This document shows, piece by piece, positions 12,073 to 45,829 of a stretch of DNA of 64,000 nt. The stretch covers positions 73,264-137,263 of the forward strand of contig JBBHKE010001162.1 of the NCBI GenBank assembly GCA_037447655.1. The letters run 5' to 3'. Numbering within the stretch: the first letter of the stretch is position 1; every line of letters begins with the position of its first letter. Both the position numbers and the translations under genes were made by a program. The stretch is from Zygnema cylindricum. Lineage: Eukaryota; Streptophyta; Zygnematophyceae; Zygnematales; Zygnemataceae. Under the pieces are notes generated by a model, which ran no database searches, was not told the origin of the DNA, and saw nothing but the letters and a program-made list of their open reading frames with translations.

Positions 12073-13503
12073 TGTTGTTTTTGGAAGATTCAGTTTCGCA
12101 CATGCGTGCACGTATTTGCGTGCGTACGTAATTTCCGAAGTTAATGTGGAGGTTCGAACGGATTTGCGGATTGGGGGTTTATTGTACAAGTAAAATTAAT
12201 TGACTAATTGAGTGGCGCTGAATGCGTAAGTGAAATGGACGGCGGATCGCGAAGCGATCCGATGTAAAATATTCTAAAAAGTCAAAATAGTACGTCGCAC
12301 GTACGAAACACAATGCGACGGGCGACAGCTATTGAAAAGGACGCTTCCGGTACGGAACGTCTTATTTGGACATGTGTACTCTATATGCGACAGGCGCATT
12401 TATTGCAAACGACGCATATCCAGTACGGAAAAGATTTGGAAGGTACGGATTAATTTCGGCAGTGGTTCGAGTTACACGTGGAGGGCGGACGACGTCCGCC
12501 GATATTTTCAAGGGATCGCATTATTTTTAATGACGTATTATTAGGTGGACCGTACATATGCGATGTCGGTTCACTACGTGGATTTATCTGCAAGTGACTA
12601 AGCGAGTTGTCGCTTATGACGCGTATTTTGCGGACGCGTCGGTGTAAATATTTGAAACAACATTGTTTTGTCGTATGTGTAATAATAATTTAGTATTGAT
12701 TATGACAGTTTTTATTTAGATGATCATTTAGGGTTTCGGCAGTTTAATTTGTGTGTTGTCGTACTTGCAGACAAGTGTACGCTTATGATTGGTTGACTTT
12801 CAGGTGTACACTTACAGTTAGGATTATTTGTTGTAATAGGTTCTCATGGTTTAATACTACTTAGTGGAAGTTACGTTGGTTAATTTGACACGTAGCGATT
12901 TGTTGACAGCTCGCAAGTGTATATATAGATTTGAGCTTCATTAGGAAAATCATCAATGCTGGTTAGAAAAGTAGGGACCAAAGATGTAGTATTTTAGGGT
13001 TGTCGATTAGGTCATGCACTTTGAATGATATAATGATTATTTGATTATACTTTGATTATACTTTTGTTTATGTGTGATGCATTCATTTATTATTATTTAT
13101 ATGTGTTATTTATATGCTTGTTTGTTATGCATTGTTAATGCATTTGTCCTAGGGTTTGTTTATGTTGATTATTCCATCAAACCTTAGATGTTATCCTAAG
13201 GTTTGTTTATGTTGATTACTCCATCAAACCTTAGTTGTGTTTGTTATGTTATGCGTTGTCTTAGGGTTTGTTATGATGATGGAGATATATTAAGCTTCTA
13301 TTCCATGAAACCCTAGATGATTTCATGCGTCTGTGTATGCATGCTTGCTCCGTCTGTGTGCGGATGAATGATTGCATCTGTGTATGCATGTATGTTAAAT
13401 GAAGGATGCATTTCAAATGATTGTTCATTGGCCTGGCTTCGCTTAGCTTTTTGCATGATAGTTTGGGTGGCTTCTGCGGTCTATTTTAGACCAAAGAACA
13501 ACA
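12073..13503 (+). mobile_element. Solo LTR D1 (1431 bp)
   Basis: Begins TGTTGTTTTTGGAAG and ends CCAAAGAACAACA (TG...CA). It is flanked by the exact 5-bp duplication ATTGT at 12068-12072 and 13504-13508. It is homologous throughout to the LTRs of the tandem array at 20228-26181 (opposite strand) and more distantly to D2 at 44661. Internal marks are a TATA box at 12920-12928, the hairpin CGGATCGCGAAGCGATCCG at about 12244, and an ATG 49 bp from the 3' end. It has no internal region, so it is a recombination-derived solo LTR. Confidence 0.93.
12920..12928 (+). promoter_or_regulatory. TATA box of solo LTR D1
   Basis: TATATATAG lies in the same position as TATATATAGG in the other D-family LTRs and in element C, just before the GAGCTTCATTAGGAAA block. 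Confidence 0.6.
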
Positions 13504-18628: not shown

Positions 18629-21483
18629 TGAGAGAAAAAGAGTAAATGCATTGATAATGCAACTCCTTGAAGAGTATAAAAATATCATTAATTAGTTGCA
18701 AGATCTAGGTGATAGCAATTGGAATTGAGATGATACAGTGGGGATGATTTTAGTAAAAGAGACAACCATAGAACTTGGGAGAGGAAGTCCGAGTGTTCAA
18801 GCATTGGCTCTAGTATCTGATTGGCGGAAGCGTGGTGAGAAAAAGGGAAAGGATCCCTATCGAAACTTAGGAGGAAGAGGACATAAAGGTGGCAGATTTG
18901 ACCGACAGGGAACAAGAGCTCATCGAGGTGGACAATGTCACTTCTACAAAAAACTGGGACATTATATGGCAGATTGTGTCAATCTTTCAAATCTTCGACT
19001 GAAAGATGGACAAGATTCCTCAAGAGATAAAGGAAAGAAAAATGCTTTTTCTGACTCTCGTTCATGAAGAGGAAGAAGATGAAGTAACCGAACTGGAAGA
19101 GGAACTTACGAAGCTTCTTTTTAATCAGAAAAACCACTGACAAACATGTTGACATTCCAAAGAGACAGGCGTGTGCTTTCGAAGGTAAGAGGGATCCAAT
19201 TGAGGATGGGTGGATCATAGACTCGGGGGGCTCAATGTTGAAATTGTTAGATTTATGTGGTATTTTCTAGGTCTAAATAGTTCAGTACAAAAAGGAAAAG
19301 AAAAAGGCGGACAACCTGCCTCCACCTCCTCTCTCTACCCACCATATTTGTTGTAGTCACTGAGGGATAGAGAGGGTGGTTGAGCCATGGTTGTCCTACC
19401 TCAGTAGGCGAACTAAAGAGTGACTTAAGTCACCGTTAACAAAAGGTTGAGTCTGGCAAGACTCGAATCTCCGACCGGCAGAGCCGGCGTAGCCGTTAGC
19501 ACTAACCAGTCTGTCGTAAAAGTCCGTTAAAAGATATAGGGTTTGATATGTATTTAAGCTATTGTATGGTACTGAAATTAATTAACAGGAACTTGAACGA
19601 AGGAACATAGAAATTGTAAAAGTTTTGTGCGGACGTCATTTCGCAAGAAACAAATGAATCGGACATTTGTTTCGACGGTCGACATTTAATGTCAGATTTA
19701 ATCCGACAGCACATATCATCGCCGAGATCGAGGAATGGTCACTTTGGCTTTTATGGACGTGGCATGACTTGGCGCCGAATGGAAGGATGACATTCGGTGG
19801 CGGGAATTCCAAGGAATGTACGGACGAGGATAAAAGTGACACGCGTCTACTCAGTGGCCTTGTCGTACACAGGCCGTATAGAAAGGACATCGACCGTAGT
19901 ACCTTTCTGTACTTTACAGTCATATGATTGGTGTTTTTTTTAAAAGCTTTAGTCCTCTCTATATTTTGTGAGAAGAAGCCTCAAGACTTAGAAATATTTT
20001 TAGAGTTGTTACTTGATTCTACGTAGCACAATTAGTATGAAGACGTCACTACAGTTTTCTTCGTGACAAGACATACTCTATGACAAGATTTACAAGAAAG
20101 TCCTTTATCGAACAATATTTATGTGATAAGAAAGATTACGAAATGGCGCGCACTACTTAATTATGACATATCGTCCGATAGACAAAATCGGACCGACAAA
20201 GACATACCAGAATCTGGAAGTGGACCATGTTGTTCTTTGGTCTAAAATAGACCGCAGAAGCCACCCAAACTATCATGCAAAAAGCTAAGCAAAAATAGGT
20301 CGACGAACAATCATTTGAAATGCATCCTCCATTTAACATACAACAACATTTAGGGTTTTATGGAATAATCAACATAAATAAACCCTATGACAACATCTAA
20401 GGTTTGATGGAATAATCGACATAAACAAACCCTAGGACAAATGCATAAACAATGCATATCAAACATATATAAAATAACATAAAAAAAAAAACAAATGCAT
20501 CACACATAAACAAGAGTATAATCAAAGTATAATCATTATATCATTCAAAGTGCATGACCTAATCGGCAACCCTAAAAGTCTACATCTTCGGTCCCCACTT
20601 TACTAACCAGCATTGATGATTTATTCCTAACAAAGCTCATTCCTATATATACACTTGTGAGCTGTCAACGAATCACTAAGTGTCAAAATAACCAACGTAA
20701 ATTACGTAGCTGTCATTAAGTCATATTTAACCATGATAGCCAATTACTAAGAAACACTAATCGTAAGCGTACACCTGAAAGTCAAGCAATCGTAAGCGTA
20801 CACTTGTCTGCAAATACGACACATAAATTAAAGTGTCGATATCCTCATTAATCACGTAAAATATAACTATTTTAATCAACACTAAATCATTAATTCAAAT
20901 AAGACAAAACATTGATGCTTCAAATATTTACACCGACGCATCCAAAAATCCGCGTCATAAGTGACAACTTGCTTAGTCACTTGTCGATAAGTCCACGTAG
21001 TGAACTGACATCGCATATGTACGGTCCACTAGATAATGCGTCATTAAAGATATTGAGATCCCTTGAAAATATCGGTAGACGACATTCGCCCTCCACGTGT
21101 ACCATGACCAACTTGCCGAAATCAATTCGTACGATCCAATTCTCTCCGTACCGAAATCACGTACTTCGTCATAAATGCGCCTTGTCGCATTTAAGGTACA
21201 CGTCATTTTCGATAAATGCATGTCGCAATAAGCGACAACTTAAAGTACACCTGTCAAATACGACGCTCCGTACCGGCGGCGTCCCATGTAATAAATTTCA
21301 TCTGTCGCATTATGTTTCGTACGTGCGACGTACCATTTTATCTTCGTCGATTATCTCACGTCGGATTGCTTCGCGATCCGCCGTCCATTTCCTCTCACAT
21401 TTCGCGCCACTCAATTACTCCATTAATTTTACGTGTACATTTAATTCCCCAATCCATAAATCCTTTCGAACCTCCACAATATA

Positions 21484-21547
21484 TCGCGTAAATGCGTACG
21501 CACGAAACATCGCGTACGCACGAAACTATGTGTTCGCACGAAACTAA
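21484..21547 (-). repeat. Short direct repeats at the D-family LTR start
   Basis: Three tandem copies close to CGCGTACGCACGAAAC (about 18 bp) lie at the start of the LTR, and again in the other two array LTRs and, altered, in D2 at about 44685. The position in U3 suggests regulatory repeats; that is inference. Confidence 0.55.
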
Positions 21548-22520
21548 CTTTTCAAAAACAACACTACCTCGAAAATTTAGTTTCGTGCATCCATGATGCC
21601 ACGTCATCATCTGTCACACTTCATGGAACTACGTCATCAGCTGTCACCAATGTCACCTTCAGCTGCCTCCTCCATTTGAATCCGCCTTCGCTACACCACT
21701 GCTTCCGCTTCCTCCATAAATCTTTCCAAATATCATAATACACAATATATATTTTCATTTTCCGATTACAACAAATTTTCTTTTTTTCTCAACAATATCT
21801 AAATCCAAAAATTTCCCATAAAAATACATAAATAATAAACTATTTTCCGAAAATCAATTCTACCAAAAATAAACAAAATTACCACATTTTCCTCTAACTA
21901 CTATAACAATTTCCAAAAATAAAACTTTCCAAATTTTCAACCAGCGCACTTAATCCCACAAAATAAAACATTAAAAATAGAAATAAATAAAATCTACATT
22001 CTCTATCCCAATTTTAAGCTCCAATAATGTTACATTTCCCAAAACTACCAACAATCCGAAAAAATAAAATCTCATAACATCCCATAATTATAGATCCACA
22101 AATTCGGATCTTTCACCAAATGCCACAACTCCACCTTTCGGATCTCTCTCCCCCAAACGTCGAAACTCCACCTTCCGCATCTCTCCACTAAATGTCAAAT
22201 CTCCACCAAATGTCAAAACTTCATATTCCACATTTCGAAATGCTTCATCAAAAATAAACATGTATTTTCCAAAAATTATAAAATATCCTTTCTCAAAATA
22301 AATAATTTTCATTGAGGGTAGTCATTTCGGCACTGTCACTAAGTTAACCCTTGGGGCGATGCAAGATTAAACTCGGCACATACCAACACTATGATAAGGC
22401 CGATCTCATGGGTACACAGACACCATTACTGCAATACAACCAGCAAGAACAAAATTAACCCGCTACAATGCGTGTGACACAAACCTATCTCGACTTAACC
22501 TAACATATGATAGATGGGGT

Positions 22521-22534
22521 GTGGGCCCATAACC
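22521..22534 (-). other. Primer-binding site, array internal region 1
   Basis: On the minus strand GGTTATGGGCCCAC follows the LTR end AACAACA with no gap. Fourteen bases match the complement of the plant initiator tRNA-Met anticodon arm as I recall it. Confidence 0.8.
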
Positions 22535-24829
22535 TGTTGTTCTTTGGTCTAAAATAGACCGCAGAAGCCACCCAAACTATCATGCAAAAAGCTAAGCAAA
22601 AATAGGTCGACGAACAATCATTTGAAATGCATCCTCCTTTTAACATACAACAACATTTAGGGTTTCATGGAATAATCAAAATAAATAAACCCCATGACAA
22701 CATCTAAGGTTTGATGGAATAATCGACATAAACAAACACTAGGACAAATGCATAAACAATGCATATCAAACATATATAAAATAACATAAAAAAAAAAAAA
22801 CAAATGCATCACACATAAACAAGAGTATAATCAAAGTATAATCATTATATCATTCAAAGTGCATGACCTAATCGGCAACCCTAAAAGTCCACATCTTCGG
22901 TCCCCACTTTACTAACCAGCATTGATGATTTATTCCTAACAAAGCTCATTCCTATATATACACTTGTGAGCTGTCAACGAATCACTAAGTGTCAAAATAA
23001 CCAACGTAAATTACGTAGCTGTCATTAAGTCATATTTAACCATGATAGCCAATTACTAAGAAACACTAATCGTAAGCGTACACCTGAAAGTCAAGCAATC
23101 GTAAGCGTACACTTGTCTGCAAATACGACACATAAATTAAAGTGTCGATATCCTCATTAATCACGTAAAATATAACTATTTTAATCAACACTAAATCATT
23201 AATTCAAATAAGACAAAACATTGATGCTTCAAATATTTACACCGACGCATCCAAAAATCCGCGTCATAAGTGACAACTTGCTTAGTCACTTGTCGATAAG
23301 TCCACGTAGTGAACTGACATCGCATATGTACGGTCCACTAGATAATGCGTCATTAAAGATATTGAGATCCCTTGAAAATATCGGTAGACGACATTCGCCC
23401 TCCACGTGTACCATGACCAACTTGCCGAAATCAATTCGTACGATCCAATTCTCTCCGTACCGAAATCACGTACTTCGTCATAAATGCGCCTTGTCGCATT
23501 TAAGGTACACGTCATTTTCGATAAATGCATGTCGCAATAAGCGACAACTTAAAGTACACCTGTCAAATACGACGCTCCGTACCGGCGGCGTCCCATGTAA
23601 TAAATTTCATCTGTCGCATTATGTTTCGTACGTGCGACGTACCATTTTATCTTCGTCGATTATCTCACGTCGGATTGCTTCGCGATCCGCCGTCCATTTC
23701 CTCTCACATTTCGCGCCACTCAATTACTCCATTAATTTTACGTGTACATTTAATTCCCCAATCCATAAATCCTTTCGAACCTCCACAATATATCGCGTAA
23801 ATGCGTACGCACGAAACATCGCGTACGCACGAAACTATGTGTTCGCACGAAACTAACTTTTCAAAAACAACACTACCTCGAAAATTTAGTTTCGTGCATC
23901 CATGATGCCACGTCATCATCTGTCACACTTCATGGAACTACGTCATCAGCTGTCACCAATGTCACCTTCAGCTGCCTCCTCCATTTGAATCCGCCTTCGC
24001 TACACCACTGCTTCCGCTTCCTCCATAAATCTTTCCAAATATCATAATACACAATATATATTTTCATTTTCCGATTACAACAAATTTTCTTTTTTTCTCA
24101 ACAATATCTAAATCCAAAAATTTCCCATAAAAATACATAAATAATAAACTATTTTCCGAAAATCAATTCTACCAAAAATAAACAAAATTACCACATTTTC
24201 CTCTAACTACTATAACAATTTCCAAAAATAAAACTTTCCAAATTTTCAACCAGCGCACTTAATCCCACAAAATAAAACATTAAAAATAGAAATAAATAAA
24301 ATCTACATTCTCTATCCCAATTTTAAGCTCCAATAATGTTACATTTCCCAAAACTACCAACAATCCGAAAAAATAAAATCTCATAACATCCCATAATTAT
24401 AGATCCACAAATTCGGATCTTTCACCAAATGCCACAACTCCACCTTTCGGATCTCTCTCCCCCAAACGTCGAAACTCCACCTTCCGCATCTCTCCACTAA
24501 ATGTCAAATCTCCACCAAATGTCAAAACTTCATATTCCACATTTCGAAATGCTTCATCAAAAATAAACATGTATTTTCCAAAAATTATAAAATATCCTTT
24601 CTCAAAATAAATAATTTTCATTGAGGGTAGTCATTTCGGCACTGTCACTAAGTTAACCCTTGGGGCGATGCAAGATTAAACTCGGCACATACCAACACTA
24701 TGATAAGGCCGATCTCATGGGTACACAGACACCATTACTGCAATACAACCAGCAAGAACAAAATTAACCCGCTACAATGCGTGTGACACAAACCTATCTC
24801 GACTTAACCTAACATATGATAGATGGGGT

Positions 24830-24843
24830 GTGGGCCCATAACC
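24830..24843 (-). other. Primer-binding site, array internal region 2
   Basis: Identical to the site at 22521-22534 and placed identically next to the rightmost LTR, which is the true 5' LTR of the array. Confidence 0.8.
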
Positions 24844-27075
24844 TGTTGTTCTTTGGTCTAAAATAGACCGCAGAAGCCACCCAAACTATCATGCAAAAAG
24901 CTAAGCAAAAATAGGTCGACGAACAATCATTTGAAATGCATCCTCCTTTTAACATACAACAACATTTAGGGTTTCATGGAATAATCAAAATAAATAAACC
25001 CCATGACAACATCTAAGGTTTGATGGAATAATCGACATAAACAAACACTAGGACAAATGCATAAACAATGCATATCAAACATATATAAAATAACATAAAA
25101 AAAAAAAAACAAATGCATCACACATAAACAAGAGTATAATCAAAGTATAATCATTATATCATTCAAAGTGCATGACCTAATCGGCAACCCTAAAAGTCCA
25201 CATCTTCGGTCCCCACTTTACTAACCAGCATTGATGATTTATTCCTAACAAAGCTCATTCCTATATATACACTTGTGAGCTGTCAACGAATCACTAAGTG
25301 TCAAAATAACCAACGTAAATTACGTAGCTGTCATTAAGTCATATTTAACCATGATAGCCAATTACTAAGAAACACTAATCGTAAGCGTACACCTGAAAGT
25401 CAAGCAATCGTAAGCGTACACTTGTCTGCAAATACGACACATAAATTAAAGTGTCGATATCCTCATTAATCACGTAAAATATAACTATTTTAATCAACAC
25501 TAAATCATTAATTCAAATAAGACAAAACATTGATGCTTCAAATATTTACACCGACGCATCCAAAAATCCGCGTCATAAGTGACAACTTGCTTAGTCACTT
25601 GTCGATAAGTCCACGTAGTGAACTGACATCGCATACGTACGGTCCACTAGATAATGCGCCATTAAAGATAATGAGATCCCTTGAAAATATCGGTAGACGA
25701 CATTCGCCCTCCATGTGTACCATGACCAACTTGCCGAAATCAATTCGTACGATCCAATTCTCTCCGTACCGAAATCACGTACTTCGTCATAAATGCGCCT
25801 TGTCGCATTTAAGGTACACGTCATTTTCGATAAATGCATGTCGCAATAAGCGACAACTTAAAGTACACCTGTCAAATACGACGCTCCGTACCGGCGGCGT
25901 CCCATGTAATAAATTTCATCTGTCGCATTATGTTTCGTACGTGCGACGTACCATTTTATCTTCGTCGATTATCTCACGTCGGATTGCTTCGCGATCCGCC
26001 GTCCATTTCCTCTCACATTTCGCGCCACTCAATTACTCCATTAATTTTACGTGTACATTTAATTCCCCAATCCATAAATCCTTTCGAACCTCCACAATAT
26101 ATCGCGTAAATGCGTACGCACGAAACATCGCGTACGCACGAAACGATGTGTTCGCACGAAACTAACTTTTCAAAAACAACAGACCACAATGACGCCGCGG
26201 CAAGTTTGGTCACGTATAATGTTTTAATGTCGGTGGTGACTTTGTGGAAACGGGAGTTTGTCATCTCACGTAATTGTATATTAGTGTGTACGGTTAGTAA
26301 TAGAAGTCCGTAGACAATTGAGGTTCGTCTGTACTGTACTAAACAATAGACACCGAAGTTGAATTTAACATATATCAGGTATTTAGTTAGTGTACATTAG
26401 AGTACGGTTAAATAGTACCGTAACATTCTTTAGAGTGCTGTGATTGGCTAATTAGACAGTAGTAGAATTTATTTTTATAAATTCTAGGACTTAGTTACTT
26501 TCATGTATTCCTTGTACAAGGTTTCAAAGGGCACATTTGTGCATTTTAAGGGATATTCTTTGGGCTATATCTCTTGGTTTATTTGAGCGTTTTGCTTGAA
26601 ACTTTGTGAGTTGTCAGCACACGTGGTAAACTACACGCTGGTGTAGTTTGGGGCCATTTGGCCATATTGACTGCTTTGTGCAGTGGGCCGAAGTCGGTAT
26701 CTTGAGTGCTTCCCCTTTTGGTTCTGTGATGGCTTGTGATCTAGTGGCAGTTGGTGCTACTACGGTTGTCACAGAACAACAATTGGTTCGTACTTCAATA
26801 GATCGGGGTTGTAAGAGGGGTTTAGGACTTAGGAAATTTGGTAGGCAGTTACCTGTCTCGAAGAGAGCTTTGTATAAAATTGGCATTCTTTGCCGACTAT
26901 TAACTAATCGCCTGGTTGGGCGTTTTTAGAGATTCTTTTTCCTACGGACTCACGGGAGTCGAAGCTGCACATGAGTTCCGCATATTATCTGTTTGTCTAC
27001 TTAGGTAGTAGTGGTTGCCATTGGAAGTGGGTTAGTTAATAACTATCTAGAGGCTTCTTGAATTTTGTAGTCCAA

Positions 27076-28190
27076 TGGAGGACACAGAATTGTAGTTATG
27101 GGCCCACCCTCTAGGGTGCCCACCTTCAATTGATCGAGGTTCATCTATTGGGAAGCCATGATGATGGGAGCTTTGTGCGAAAAACGATACTGGGGTATCT
27201 TCAGTGGACAAGTGAAACGTCCACCTTCGAGAACTCCACCACGAATTGGAGGACTAAGGTTTCCTGCAGCAACGGCTGCCTCAGCGGAGGAGGCAGATTA
27301 TGTGGACAACAGTGTGTAAATGGGCAAGGGAAGGAGACACCTCTCACTCTTATTGCTAGAGTACCGGGAGCGGCGACTGTAAAGACCGCGAGAACGATAC
27401 TCAACTGTGGGAGGATGTAAACATGGCTGCAAAGAACTTTATTTTGAGGCACCTCAATCAAGGTTTGGTCACCCCTCATCTTCAGATTTACTAGGCTGAG
27501 GAGTTGTGGGTGAGTTTGGTGGAGATCTATAGAGCTAGAACTATTTAGGAGCTCCAGTTGGCTGAACAAAAGCTAGCTAGTTACACTTACAGAGGAGGAA
27601 AGATGTTAGATTACTGTAATGATCTTTCTTGTTTGTATAAAGAGACGGAAAGCGCTGGGTGGACAGGTACAATGAAAATGAAAGTCAACACTCTAATCAT
27701 GAAGCTACCACATGGGTACGAGAACATATTGTACCGAGTACAGGAAATGCTTGATAGTTCATGGAAATGAAACACAGTGGTCCAGATGATACTTGTGCAG
27801 AAAAACACAATGGAGATTAGGAGAGGAGGAAAGAGCATTTAAGCTCTAGCAGTAGGAGGGGACCGATGGGGGAAGGGCCCGAAGAAACCGTACAAAGGGG
27901 CAAGAGATCACTTTGGAGGACCGAGGCCCCCAAAGGGTCTTTGTCATTTTTGCAAAAAGTCGGGACACTTCATAACAGATTGTGTCAAGTTGTCGGAGCT
28001 AAAGCTCTTAGAGAACCGTGGAGGGAGTTCTTCCAGAGGGAAAAAACAAGCACTTGTGGTCACAAAAGTGACAGGAGAAACCGAGGACGAGTCCTCAGTG
28101 GAGGATAGGGAGCTTCTTCTTAACGAGAGTATAGAGGAGAAGGAGATCCCTCGGAGACAGAAGTGTGCCCTAGGAGCAATTCGGGAAGGG
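27076..28190 (+). pseudogene. gag of copia element A1
   Basis: The start ATG at 27076 lies in the LTR. The seventh codon is TAG at the LTR/primer-site joint, so the frame is closed at once. Further on, homology to the intact-like gags runs through several frames: MMMGALCEKRYWG near 27160, LAEQKLASYTYRGGKMLDYCNDLSCLY from 27558, and NTLIMKLPHGYENILYRVQEM. The zinc knuckle CHFCKKSGHFITDC near 27942-27985 is complete (CCHC). The acidic linker DESSVEDRELLLNESIEEKE precedes protease. Confidence 0.85.
27095..27108 (+). other. Primer-binding site of A1
   Basis: GTTATGGGCCCACC lies right after the LTR end TTGTA; one leading G is missing relative to A3. Confidence 0.8.
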
Positions 28191-39765: not shown

Positions 39766-41159
39766 CGGATGGATTATGGACTCCGGATGCTCCTCCCACA
39801 TGTGTAGCAACCGGGCTTACTTCAAAACGCTTACTCCAATTCCCACTCGTCGGATTTATTACGCGGATGACAGCGGTGTGGAGGCTACGGCAAAGGGAAG
39901 CGTGGAGTTAGCATGTGACATCAATGGTCAGATTGTAAAGAGAACCTTGCATGATGTTCTCTATATCGAAAAGTTTACAAAAAAAATTGTTTTCCACTTC
40001 GGTAGCAGAAATGAAAGGTTTTGAAATTTTACAAAAGAATGGGAAAAAGGTAGTAAGCGAAAATGGGAAGGTAGCTTTGGTACGAACTAGAGGCCCAAAC
40101 TTGTTGTACCGGATAGACTTGGCTAATGAAATTGACTTTGCATACTCTAGTGTCCTTCTGGAAAATGTTTTGTGGCATAAAAGGCTCGGTCATGTTCATC
40201 ATGAAAGGCTTGATAAAATGGTAAAGTAAAATATGATAGATGGTGTTAAATTAGGACAAACAGATTCCCATGTATGTGATGGATGTGCTTTGGGAAAACT
40301 TCATAAGCTGCCACTACCTCAGACAGCGGATAACCGGGCAACGAATTTGCTGCAAATTATTCATTCGGATGTGTGGGGGCCATCAAAAGTTCCTTCACTC
40401 ACTGGCAACCGGTTTTTGGTCACTTTTACGGATGACTTCTCAAGATATAGGAAGGTTTATTTTATGAAAGAAAAGAGTGAAGTGCTCACTCACTCTAAGC
40501 ATTTTCGGGTATGGGCCGAAAAACTTCATGGGAAACCGATCCTTTCCCTTCGGTCCGACAACGGACGGGAATATATTTCTCATACATTTTCTGAATATTT
40601 AAAAGACAATGGCATTTCTCAGCAATTTACAGTTTCTTATACTCCGGAACAGAATGGAGTATCCGAAAGACTCAACCGAACTCTAACAGAAAGTGCTAAA
40701 TCTATGTTACAAGATAAGGGAATAGATTTCAAATTTTGGGGTGAAGCTTTCTCGTGTGCGTCGTATATTAGAAATAGAATAGAGACTAGAGCAGTAAAAG
40801 GGAAAACACCATATGAAGTGTGGACCGGAAGAAAACCGAATGTTAGTCACTTCAAGGTTTTTGGGAGTAAATGTTTTATTTTGGATAATCTCCCTATTTC
40901 TTAGCTTAGTCCGAAATCGATTCCAAGAATTTTTATGGGTTATGATGATGAATCCGTGGGCTATAGAGTATTTAATAGGGATACGAATACTCTTCAGACT
41001 GCTAGAAATATTCAGGTTAAAGAAGAGAGCAGATTGGTAGATGTTTTTGGTATGACATATTTTGAAAAAGATTCCAAAATAAAAGAATATGTTGTTTTTG
41101 AAAGTGTTCCTCTCACTTCTTCTAGTCCCACTTTGGACCCTCCGGCTGGTCCCCTTGTG

Positions 41160-41215
41160 GAGAATCCTCCTCCTCCACCACCTCCTCCTCCTCCACCACC
41201 TCCTCCTCGGCGACA
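41160..41215 (+). repeat. CCT/CCA proline-codon run in C Pol
   Basis: CCTCCTCCACCACCTCCTCC-type repeats encode about 14 prolines between the integrase and RT domains. Confidence 0.85.
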
Positions 41216-41279
41216 ACCTACGGATCCAACAATTCCAGCCTCAGATTTTCCGGGGGGAAAAAGGCAAAGCAGCAGGCTG

Positions 41280-41470
41280 CGAAACTGCGAAGCTGCTCTA
41301 TTTTCCGTCGGTTCAGTGGATCTGAATGAAAACTGCGACGCTGCGAAACTACGAAGCTGCGATGTTGCGAAGCTGCAAAGCTGCGACGTTGCGAAATTGC
41401 GAAGCCGCGATGCTGCGAAGCTGCAAAGCTGCGACGCTGCGAAATTGCGAAGCTGCGAAACTGCTCTATT
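41280..41470 (+). repeat. 24-bp coding repeat in C Pol
   Basis: Roughly seven units of GCGAAGCTGC AAAGCTGCGA-type sequence encode an 8-residue repeat (SCDAAKLR, SCDVAKLQ, SRDAAKLQ). It sits where other copies have only a short Ser/Lys linker between integrase and RT. It stays in frame with both flanks. Confidence 0.88.
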
Positions 41471-41594
41471 ATCTGCCAGCATGATGGAACCGGTCACAAT
41501 ACAGGAAGCCTTTTCAGCTCCGGAAAAAGATCAATGGATCGCTGCGGCTAACGATGAAATGCGATCGATAATAGAGGCTCAAACTTGGTAGCTT

Positions 41595-44660: not shown

Positions 44661-45829
44661 TGTTGTTTTGAAAAGTTAGTTTCGTGCGTACGCGACATTT
44701 TGTGCGCACGCGACGTTCATGCGTAAATTATTACCGGAAGTAATATGGTCGTACGAATGGAGGTTTGAATGGATTTGCGGATTGGGGGGGTAGTTATACG
44801 ATCAAAATTAAAGGGACGTGAGGAACTATTTGAGTGGTGTGTAATGCGGTGAGAAATGGGCGGGGGATCGCGAAGCGATCCGATCCGAAATATTTGAGAT
44901 GTTGAAAAATGATGTCGCTCGTACGAAACATAATGCGACATGCGCATTTATGGAAAAAGGACGCCGCAAGTACGGAGCGTCTTATTTGGCAAGTGGACGT
45001 GAATGCGTTTCGCGACGTTACGAGATATTTGACGACTCACGTGGATTTCGTTTGGATTTTGTTGCCACGCGGAATCGCGTCAATCACACAATGCTTATTT
45101 TTGGACGACCCGGATTCTTTGAATAAATTCAAGGAATCTCGTTGAGTGACGTAGCGTGACTCAACATACGATTTTGTGAGATTGTGTGTACGTATAAATA
45201 TTTGGTCGAACATTGTTTTGTCTTTTTGTGTATTAAGTAGTAGTGTAGGTTTACTCACTTTGACATACCTTGAAATATTCAGGTATACCAACATTAATAG
45301 AGGTAGCTGGTAGACAGCGTACGGCTGGTATGCCTCCGTACATTCAGCAGTAAGCTCTTGTATATATTTGTAGGACTTAGTCATTTTAGGACTTAGGAAC
45401 CTTTTGGACCAAAAACTGTTTATGGTTATTTTTGGTAATTTTATCTGAGGATTACTCTCACATCTATTGGCAAAATTGTCTAAAATTCTGTATGTGTGTT
45501 CCTCTATATACTTTTAATATTGTCACAGATTTGCAGGCCTATTGTGTGCCTGGTCTGTGCTTTAATTCATTGTGAAGTTAGTCTGTTTTATCAAAGTTCT
45601 GGCACACTGTTTTTCTGCAACTTTGACTAGATGGTGTGATCACTCTGTGCATTATTTTTTTCTGAAACTTTTTGAGGTTATTTTGTAGCCTAGAAACTAC
45701 GTGTGTTTGTAGTTTCAGCTTGTTTTGATATTTTTGTAGAATTCTGTGTTGATTCAAAGTAGGCTGTTTTTGGGTAGTCTGTGGTGCTTCCGAGGGTAAA
45801 TCCATGACTGAAAATGGCTATGGACAACA
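44661..45829 (+). mobile_element. Solo LTR D2 (1169 bp)
   Basis: TGTTGTTTTGAAAAG to GCTATGGACAACA. Flanks are AAAAA at 44656-44660 and 45830-45834; removing the LTR restores GTGTGAAAAACGATAG, the gag sequence seen in relatives. It shares TTTCGTGCGTACGCGAC and GATCGCGAAGCGATCC with the array LTRs. The last 26 bp start with ATG (MTENGYGQQ). Confidence 0.92.

Follow-up and report, generated by a model that had tools for sequence, protein, structure and literature searches.

A tandem LTR retrotransposon array in Zygnema cylindricum with a mosaic middle LTR that probably arose by unequal crossover

In the genome assembly of the alga Zygnema cylindricum (Zygnematophyceae; GenBank GCA_037447655.1), contig JBBHKE010001162.1 carries a tandemly arrayed retrotransposon, which we analysed within a stretch of 64,000 nucleotides (positions 73,264 to 137,263 of the forward strand; hereafter the window, with its first base as position 1). 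The array consists of three long terminal repeats (LTRs) on the same strand that alternate with two internal parts (LTR-int-LTR-int-LTR, 20228-26181). A preliminary description of this DNA had given these coordinates together with a single flanking 5-bp duplication, GACCA; the coordinates are exact, and the duplication is present at 20223-20227 and 26182-26186. The components of the locus are as follows.

20223-20227: target-site duplication GACCA, left copy
20228-21563, minus strand: left LTR (L), 1336 bp, TGTTG...CAACA, the 3' LTR in the sense (minus) orientation
21564-22534, minus strand: internal part 1, 971 bp, without a Pfam match at the cut-off in the tested open reading frames (ORFs)
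22521-22534, minus strand: primer binding site GGTTATGGGCCCAC, directly abutting the middle LTR and complementary to the anticodon arm of initiator tRNA-Met
22535-23872, minus strand: middle LTR (M), 1338 bp, TGTTG...CAACA, of right-LTR type to 22890 and of left-LTR type from 23327, with 0 private changes
22891-23326: switch interval of the middle LTR, 436 bp, identical in all three LTRs
23873-24843, minus strand: internal part 2, 971 bp, equal to part 1 at 971/971 positions
24830-24843, minus strand: primer binding site abutting the right LTR
24844-26181, minus strand: right LTR (R), 1338 bp, TGTTG...CAACA, the 5' LTR in the sense orientation
26182-26186: target-site duplication GACCA, right copy

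GACCA is found at the outer borders of the array only, and the inner LTR borders adjoin the primer site and internal sequence. With three LTRs, two alternating internal parts and a single outer target-site duplication, the array has the structure of a tandem LTR retrotransposon insertion (L3I2). The 5-bp duplication and the TG...CA ends are usual for LTR elements.

Alignment of the left and right LTRs yields 11 substitutions and one 2-bp indel in an A-run, that is, 12 independent differences. The middle LTR agrees with the right LTR at each of the seven left-hand sites (20331, 20359, 20373, 20386, 20431, the A-run at about 20480, and 20581), equals the left LTR at all five right-hand sites (21018, 21041, 21053, 21096 and 21527), and is the odd one out at 0/12 sites, so that the marker type switches once, between 20581 and 21018 in left-LTR coordinates. 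The pairwise alignment of LTRs and internal parts for which the preliminary description had called thus sorts the diagnostic sites into two blocks. Its six left-hand sites all hold, although a seventh, at 20386 (CCCTATG versus CCCCATG), had been overlooked, and its five later sites agree with the alignment without exception. Were L, M and R equally likely to be the odd one, zero private changes in M would be expected with P=0.008, and perfect ordered two-block sorting of 7 + 5 sites would arise by chance with P=0.0013. The two internal parts are identical (971/971). A middle LTR with one switch, R-type on the left and L-type on the right, between identical internal parts is the configuration expected after unequal crossover between LTRs, though not after crossover alone. 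The 436-bp switch interval is the longest stretch in which L and R are identical, the runner-up being 430 bp; homologous recombination allows a switch there, but the stretch makes up about one third of the LTR, and its position adds little.

If the array is real, there is good support for a middle LTR that was formed after insertion out of both outer ones, and the two-block sharing of differences that arose after insertion dates the duplication to after insertion as well. The relative ages can be bounded from the same alignments. The divergence between L and R amounts to 11/1336 substitutions, and in the 2309 positions that were duplicated there are 0 differences. For an insertion and a duplication of equal age, this outcome would have P=5.5e-9; the ratio of the age of the duplication to that of the insertion has a 95% upper bound of 0.16. 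Given a real array and L and R that were alike at insertion, on which all these datings are conditional, the duplication is much younger than the insertion. At a rate of 1.3e-8, a grass rate that we assume here and that may not be that of the host, the insertion would date to about 0.3 Myr and the duplication to less than 0.05 Myr. The array is a known kind of event and a clean marker case for duplication after insertion.

The orientation of the element, on which part of the interpretation depends, follows from its primer site. On the minus strand, GGTTATGGGCCCAC follows the sense 5' LTR (...CAACA) without a gap, and its complement is GTGGGCCCATAACC, from the anticodon arm of initiator tRNA-Met. 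The plant initiator, which we take to have GTGG, would match the primer site at 14/14 positions. The human initiator, CTGGGCCCATAACC, matches at 13/14 (PMC8216282). The 13-mer GTGGGCCCATAAC has five exact occurrences in the window, two of them in the array and the others at 27095, 44571 and 60792, where it follows the ends of Copia LTRs (at 27095 by self-comparison of the window, at the other two by likeness); there is one further match with two mismatches, and 0.7 matches are expected at up to two mismatches. Pfam domains of Copia-type reverse transcriptase, integrase or other pol proteins were found in 7/8 ORFs tested from 27.8-63.6 kb. Two Copia reverse transcriptase stretches had 7752 and 3601 relatives; among the best 120 of each, plants make up most of the named ones, a few carry names of bacteria, and matches over the full length reach about 37-50% identity, too low to point to a species. 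Because the primer site abuts the right LTR and is shared with Copia elements, the minus strand is taken as the sense strand. The standard plant primer site (GGTATCAGAGC) was tried as well; it has two one-mismatch matches in the window, both in Copia-like stretches, and 14/100 shuffles gave as many.

Three further features of the window bear on how the array arose.

12073-13503, plus strand (sense): solo LTR of 1431 bp related to the array LTRs (84% identity in aligned columns) and lying antiparallel to them, with target-site duplication ACAAT
44661-45829, plus strand: distantly related solo LTR, 1169 bp, with target-site duplication AAAAA, inserted into a Copia element 77 bp past its primer site
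20620-20651, within the left LTR, minus strand: candidate TATA box (sense 913) and AATAAA (sense 939), both motif matches, at a possible U3/R/U5 junction

We consider it probable, at roughly two chances in three, that the array arose when the two LTRs of a single older insertion underwent unequal crossover. Because reverse transcription makes the two LTRs of an element alike, the differences between L and R are taken to postdate the insertion, and under the proposed course of events the two LTRs of a single insertion would have collected all 12 of them. Misaligned pairing would then have brought the left LTR of one chromatid or homologue against the right LTR of its partner, and crossing over inside the 436-bp identical stretch would have yielded L-int-(R/L)-int-R, with a solo LTR of the L/R type as the reciprocal product. 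The duplication would be a by-product of recombination, and it has no evident function. A solo LTR is the usual deletion product of LTR recombination, and this opposite outcome, with its own target-site duplications, occurs twice in the window in related families, at 12073-13503 and 44661-45829, which speaks for the crossover. In the second of these, the duplication AAAAA is simple sequence, yet the flanking Copia matches overlap by exactly five bases (27180-27184) in an uninterrupted Copia, which fits the requirement of a 5-bp duplication. Unequal crossover is the simplest route to the mosaic middle LTR, although the pattern is not diagnostic of crossover alone. The preliminary description had read the array as a product of crossover; the part of that reading which places the origin of the middle LTR after insertion, from both outer LTRs, stands at 12/12 sites if the array is real, whereas crossover as the unique explanation does not, because an identical mosaic is expected from cDNA of the same element, from the re-entry of an excised one-LTR circle and from an assembly loop. 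This is a limit of such data in general: a mosaic by itself fits other routes besides crossover.

The genome might hold a single L-int-R, with the assembler having circled the LTR-int loop twice and entered the second round via the stretch shared by L and R. Such an artefact predicts exact internal parts, no private change in the middle LTR and a switch in the shared stretch, all of which are observed. However, the window is without N, other repeat pairs were kept apart at up to about 97% identity (among the roughly 120 pairs listed by self-comparison of the window at E<=1e-8), and reads longer than 6 kb, if used, would make an LTR-loop artefact unlikely. Moreover, published tandems proved real when checked, as reported for one rice insertion by long reads (PMC11899658) and for maize arrays of terminal-repeat retrotransposons in miniature (TRIMs) by PCR (PMC4717578). 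On balance, we regard misassembly as unlikely. Somewhat less likely still is the return of a circle to the locus, be it complementary DNA (cDNA) of L-int-R that recombined, as a one-LTR circle, into its own parent, or an excised genomic one-LTR circle that re-entered. In strand transfer, the 3' LTR supplies the U3 of the daughter LTR and the 5' LTR its U5. With the minus strand as sense, U3 lies on the right in plus coordinates and would derive from L, while U5 lies on the left and would derive from R, so that the same mosaic results. The primer site makes minus the sense strand, as the cDNA model requires, the TATA match at sense 913 and the AATAAA at sense 939 would place the junction near plus 20620, inside the interval 20582-21017, and one-LTR circles have been raised in connection with tandem formation, as templates for transcription (PMC11899658). 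This junction, however, is one choice of motifs among several (on the sense strand, TATA at 913 and 1093, and poly(A) signals at 119, 688 and 939); TATA at 1093 would shift the start outside the switch interval, and the AATAAA is not kept in the related solo LTR at 12073-13503. The cDNA form further requires that the element was still active after its LTRs had diverged, and that the cDNA recombined into the very locus from which it came. Its full version, in which the middle LTR was reverse-transcribed from this very element, the one-LTR cDNA circle homed to the parental copy by recombination, and arrays grow in this way, is a long shot; if true, other mosaics that have been read as crossover products would become equally ambiguous.

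Two further origins, in which the tandem structure would go back to insertion itself or to neighbouring insertions, were rejected on the sorting of sites, the identical internal parts and the one shared duplication. If the array had been inserted as a finished tandem, formed by template switching between two RNAs or by transcription of a circle, it would carry one target-site duplication, as seen here, and tandem insertion has been described for Triticeae, rice and maize (PMC1950507). Such an origin would nonetheless lead one to expect independent divergence of the three LTRs, contrary to the lack of private changes in M and to the ordered two-block sorting (P=0.008 and P=0.0013, as above), and about 8 internal differences (971 x 11/1336, by hand) where 0 are seen; the marker pattern argues strongly against this origin, and we hold it to be very improbable. 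Recombination between two neighbouring, independent insertions of one family would likewise yield a chimeric middle LTR (PMC1950507), but such insertions would leave two unlike flanking 5-mers, whereas both ends read GACCA, and as a rule they leave two diverged internal parts rather than identical ones. Barring a coincidental match of the 5-mers, the shared duplication refutes this last scenario, the most improbable of all.

Several points weigh against unequal crossover. The zero private changes and the exact internal parts are equally expected from a loop in the assembly, the model of reverse transcription predicts an identical chimera, and the reciprocal solo-LTR allele of the array locus was not seen in the one sequence analysed. 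Furthermore, equal ageing of L and R sits uneasily with the polarity of their differences. With the solo LTR at 12073-13503 as the reference, 8/9 informative substitutions look derived in R and 1 in L, 2/11 being uninformative (two-sided binomial for the 8 versus 1 split 0.039, by hand), and 5/11 of the L/R substitutions, most of which look R-derived, fall within 101 bp, at 20331-20431 (P=0.038). This evidence is weak in that the reference is 16% diverged and, owing to repeated units, partly misalignable, and C-to-T homoplasy can mislead; site 20359 may itself be misaligned because its region holds repeated units (by eye). The distant solo LTR (56%) aligns poorly and was left out of polarising. 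The skew and the clustering are mildly unexpected if L and R aged alike, and another copy might have supplied some of the R-type stretch, possibly through an older conversion within the right LTR that preceded the duplication.

Tandem LTR elements are described as common and polymorphic in plants; a rice pangenome built from 76 accessions contains 266 of them, and the choice between tandem insertion and later recombination is stated there as open (Morales-Diaz et al. 2025, PMC11899658). The rice and other plant tandems of that study share with the present array the LTR-int-LTR-int-LTR order and one short duplication, with internal parts up to 99% alike in one locus; for the locus studied there, the same choice is left undecided, whereas the LTR markers of the Zygnema array place its duplication after insertion. 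That study also suggests that gypsy elements are more prone to form tandems; the array has a Copia-type primer site. Tandemly arrayed TRIMs have been reported from 35/43 plant genomes, with three LTRs in 63/93 maize arrays (PMC4717578) and in 8/89 intact Wukong elements (PMC4528315). Like the array, these TRIMs, including maize Wukong, often have three LTRs, two internal parts and one duplication, and for Wukong arrays unequal crossing over was suggested by the authors (PMC4717578, PMC4528315). However, Wukong measures 532 bp with 230-bp LTRs (PMC4528315), whereas the unit of the array is about 3.6 kb with 1.34-kb LTRs; with LTRs of 1336-1338 bp and an internal part of 971 bp, the array element is outside the size of a TRIM. 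The three-LTR complexes of Triticeae attributed to template switching (Sabot and Schulman 2007, PMC1950507) also have two internal parts and a 5-bp flanking duplication, but their outer LTRs are reported to be highly alike, whereas in the array the outer pair is the most diverged and the parts of the middle LTR each match one outer LTR. The literature covered here consists of open-licence papers, and we make no claim that mosaic middle LTRs have gone unreported.

As to the identity of the element, 33 ORFs of at least 50 aa are listed for 20000-26400. Ten of these, taken from a single unit and including one that extends into the left flank, were compared with Pfam and gave no match at the cut-off (best E 0.059). 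Among Copia lineages, Osser is an algal group. In a survey of plant LTR elements (REXdb), half tRNA-Met primers are reported only for Osser, Bryco, a moss group, and part of Gymco-II, Gymco being a gymnosperm group (PMC6317226). The primer type may point to a host among algae, mosses or gymnosperms. Like these lineages, the array has, beside its 5' LTR, a primer site complementary to the anticodon arm of initiator tRNA-Met, but no match to their reverse transcriptase and integrase domains reached the cut-off in the ten tested ORFs, and an element that, unlike them, has no recognised coding content cannot be placed by protein. Judged from its sequence, the array element looks non-autonomous and is probably served by a Copia element with the same primer site; we accordingly file it as a possible dependant of these lineages rather than as a member. 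Searches for other content gave no Rfam match to a structured RNA at E up to 1 in 19500-27500, no tRNA gene by ARAGORN, no exact copy of the first 26 LTR bases in collections of viral and genome contigs (an expected result for a plant), and no empty-site copy elsewhere in the window at E 1e-3.

The relatives and neighbours of the array show some features of their own. In the solo LTR at 12073-13503, a unit of about 45 bp is present in extra copies towards the TGTTGTTC end, at the upper coordinates (by eye), and the one at 44661-45829 is about 56% identical to the array LTR overall and about 70% over a stretch of 344 columns at one end. The 0.3-kb LTR of the Copia element at 27095 has no match to the array LTR among the self-comparison pairs listed, despite the common primer site. 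From 26782 to 64000 the window is densely packed with nested, decayed Copia copies in both orientations, 64-97% alike among the pairs listed, and one ORF there, at 40905-41591, between the integrase and the reverse transcriptase of a Copia copy, encodes a proline run and short tandem repeats of the type CDVAKLQS / CDAAKLRS.

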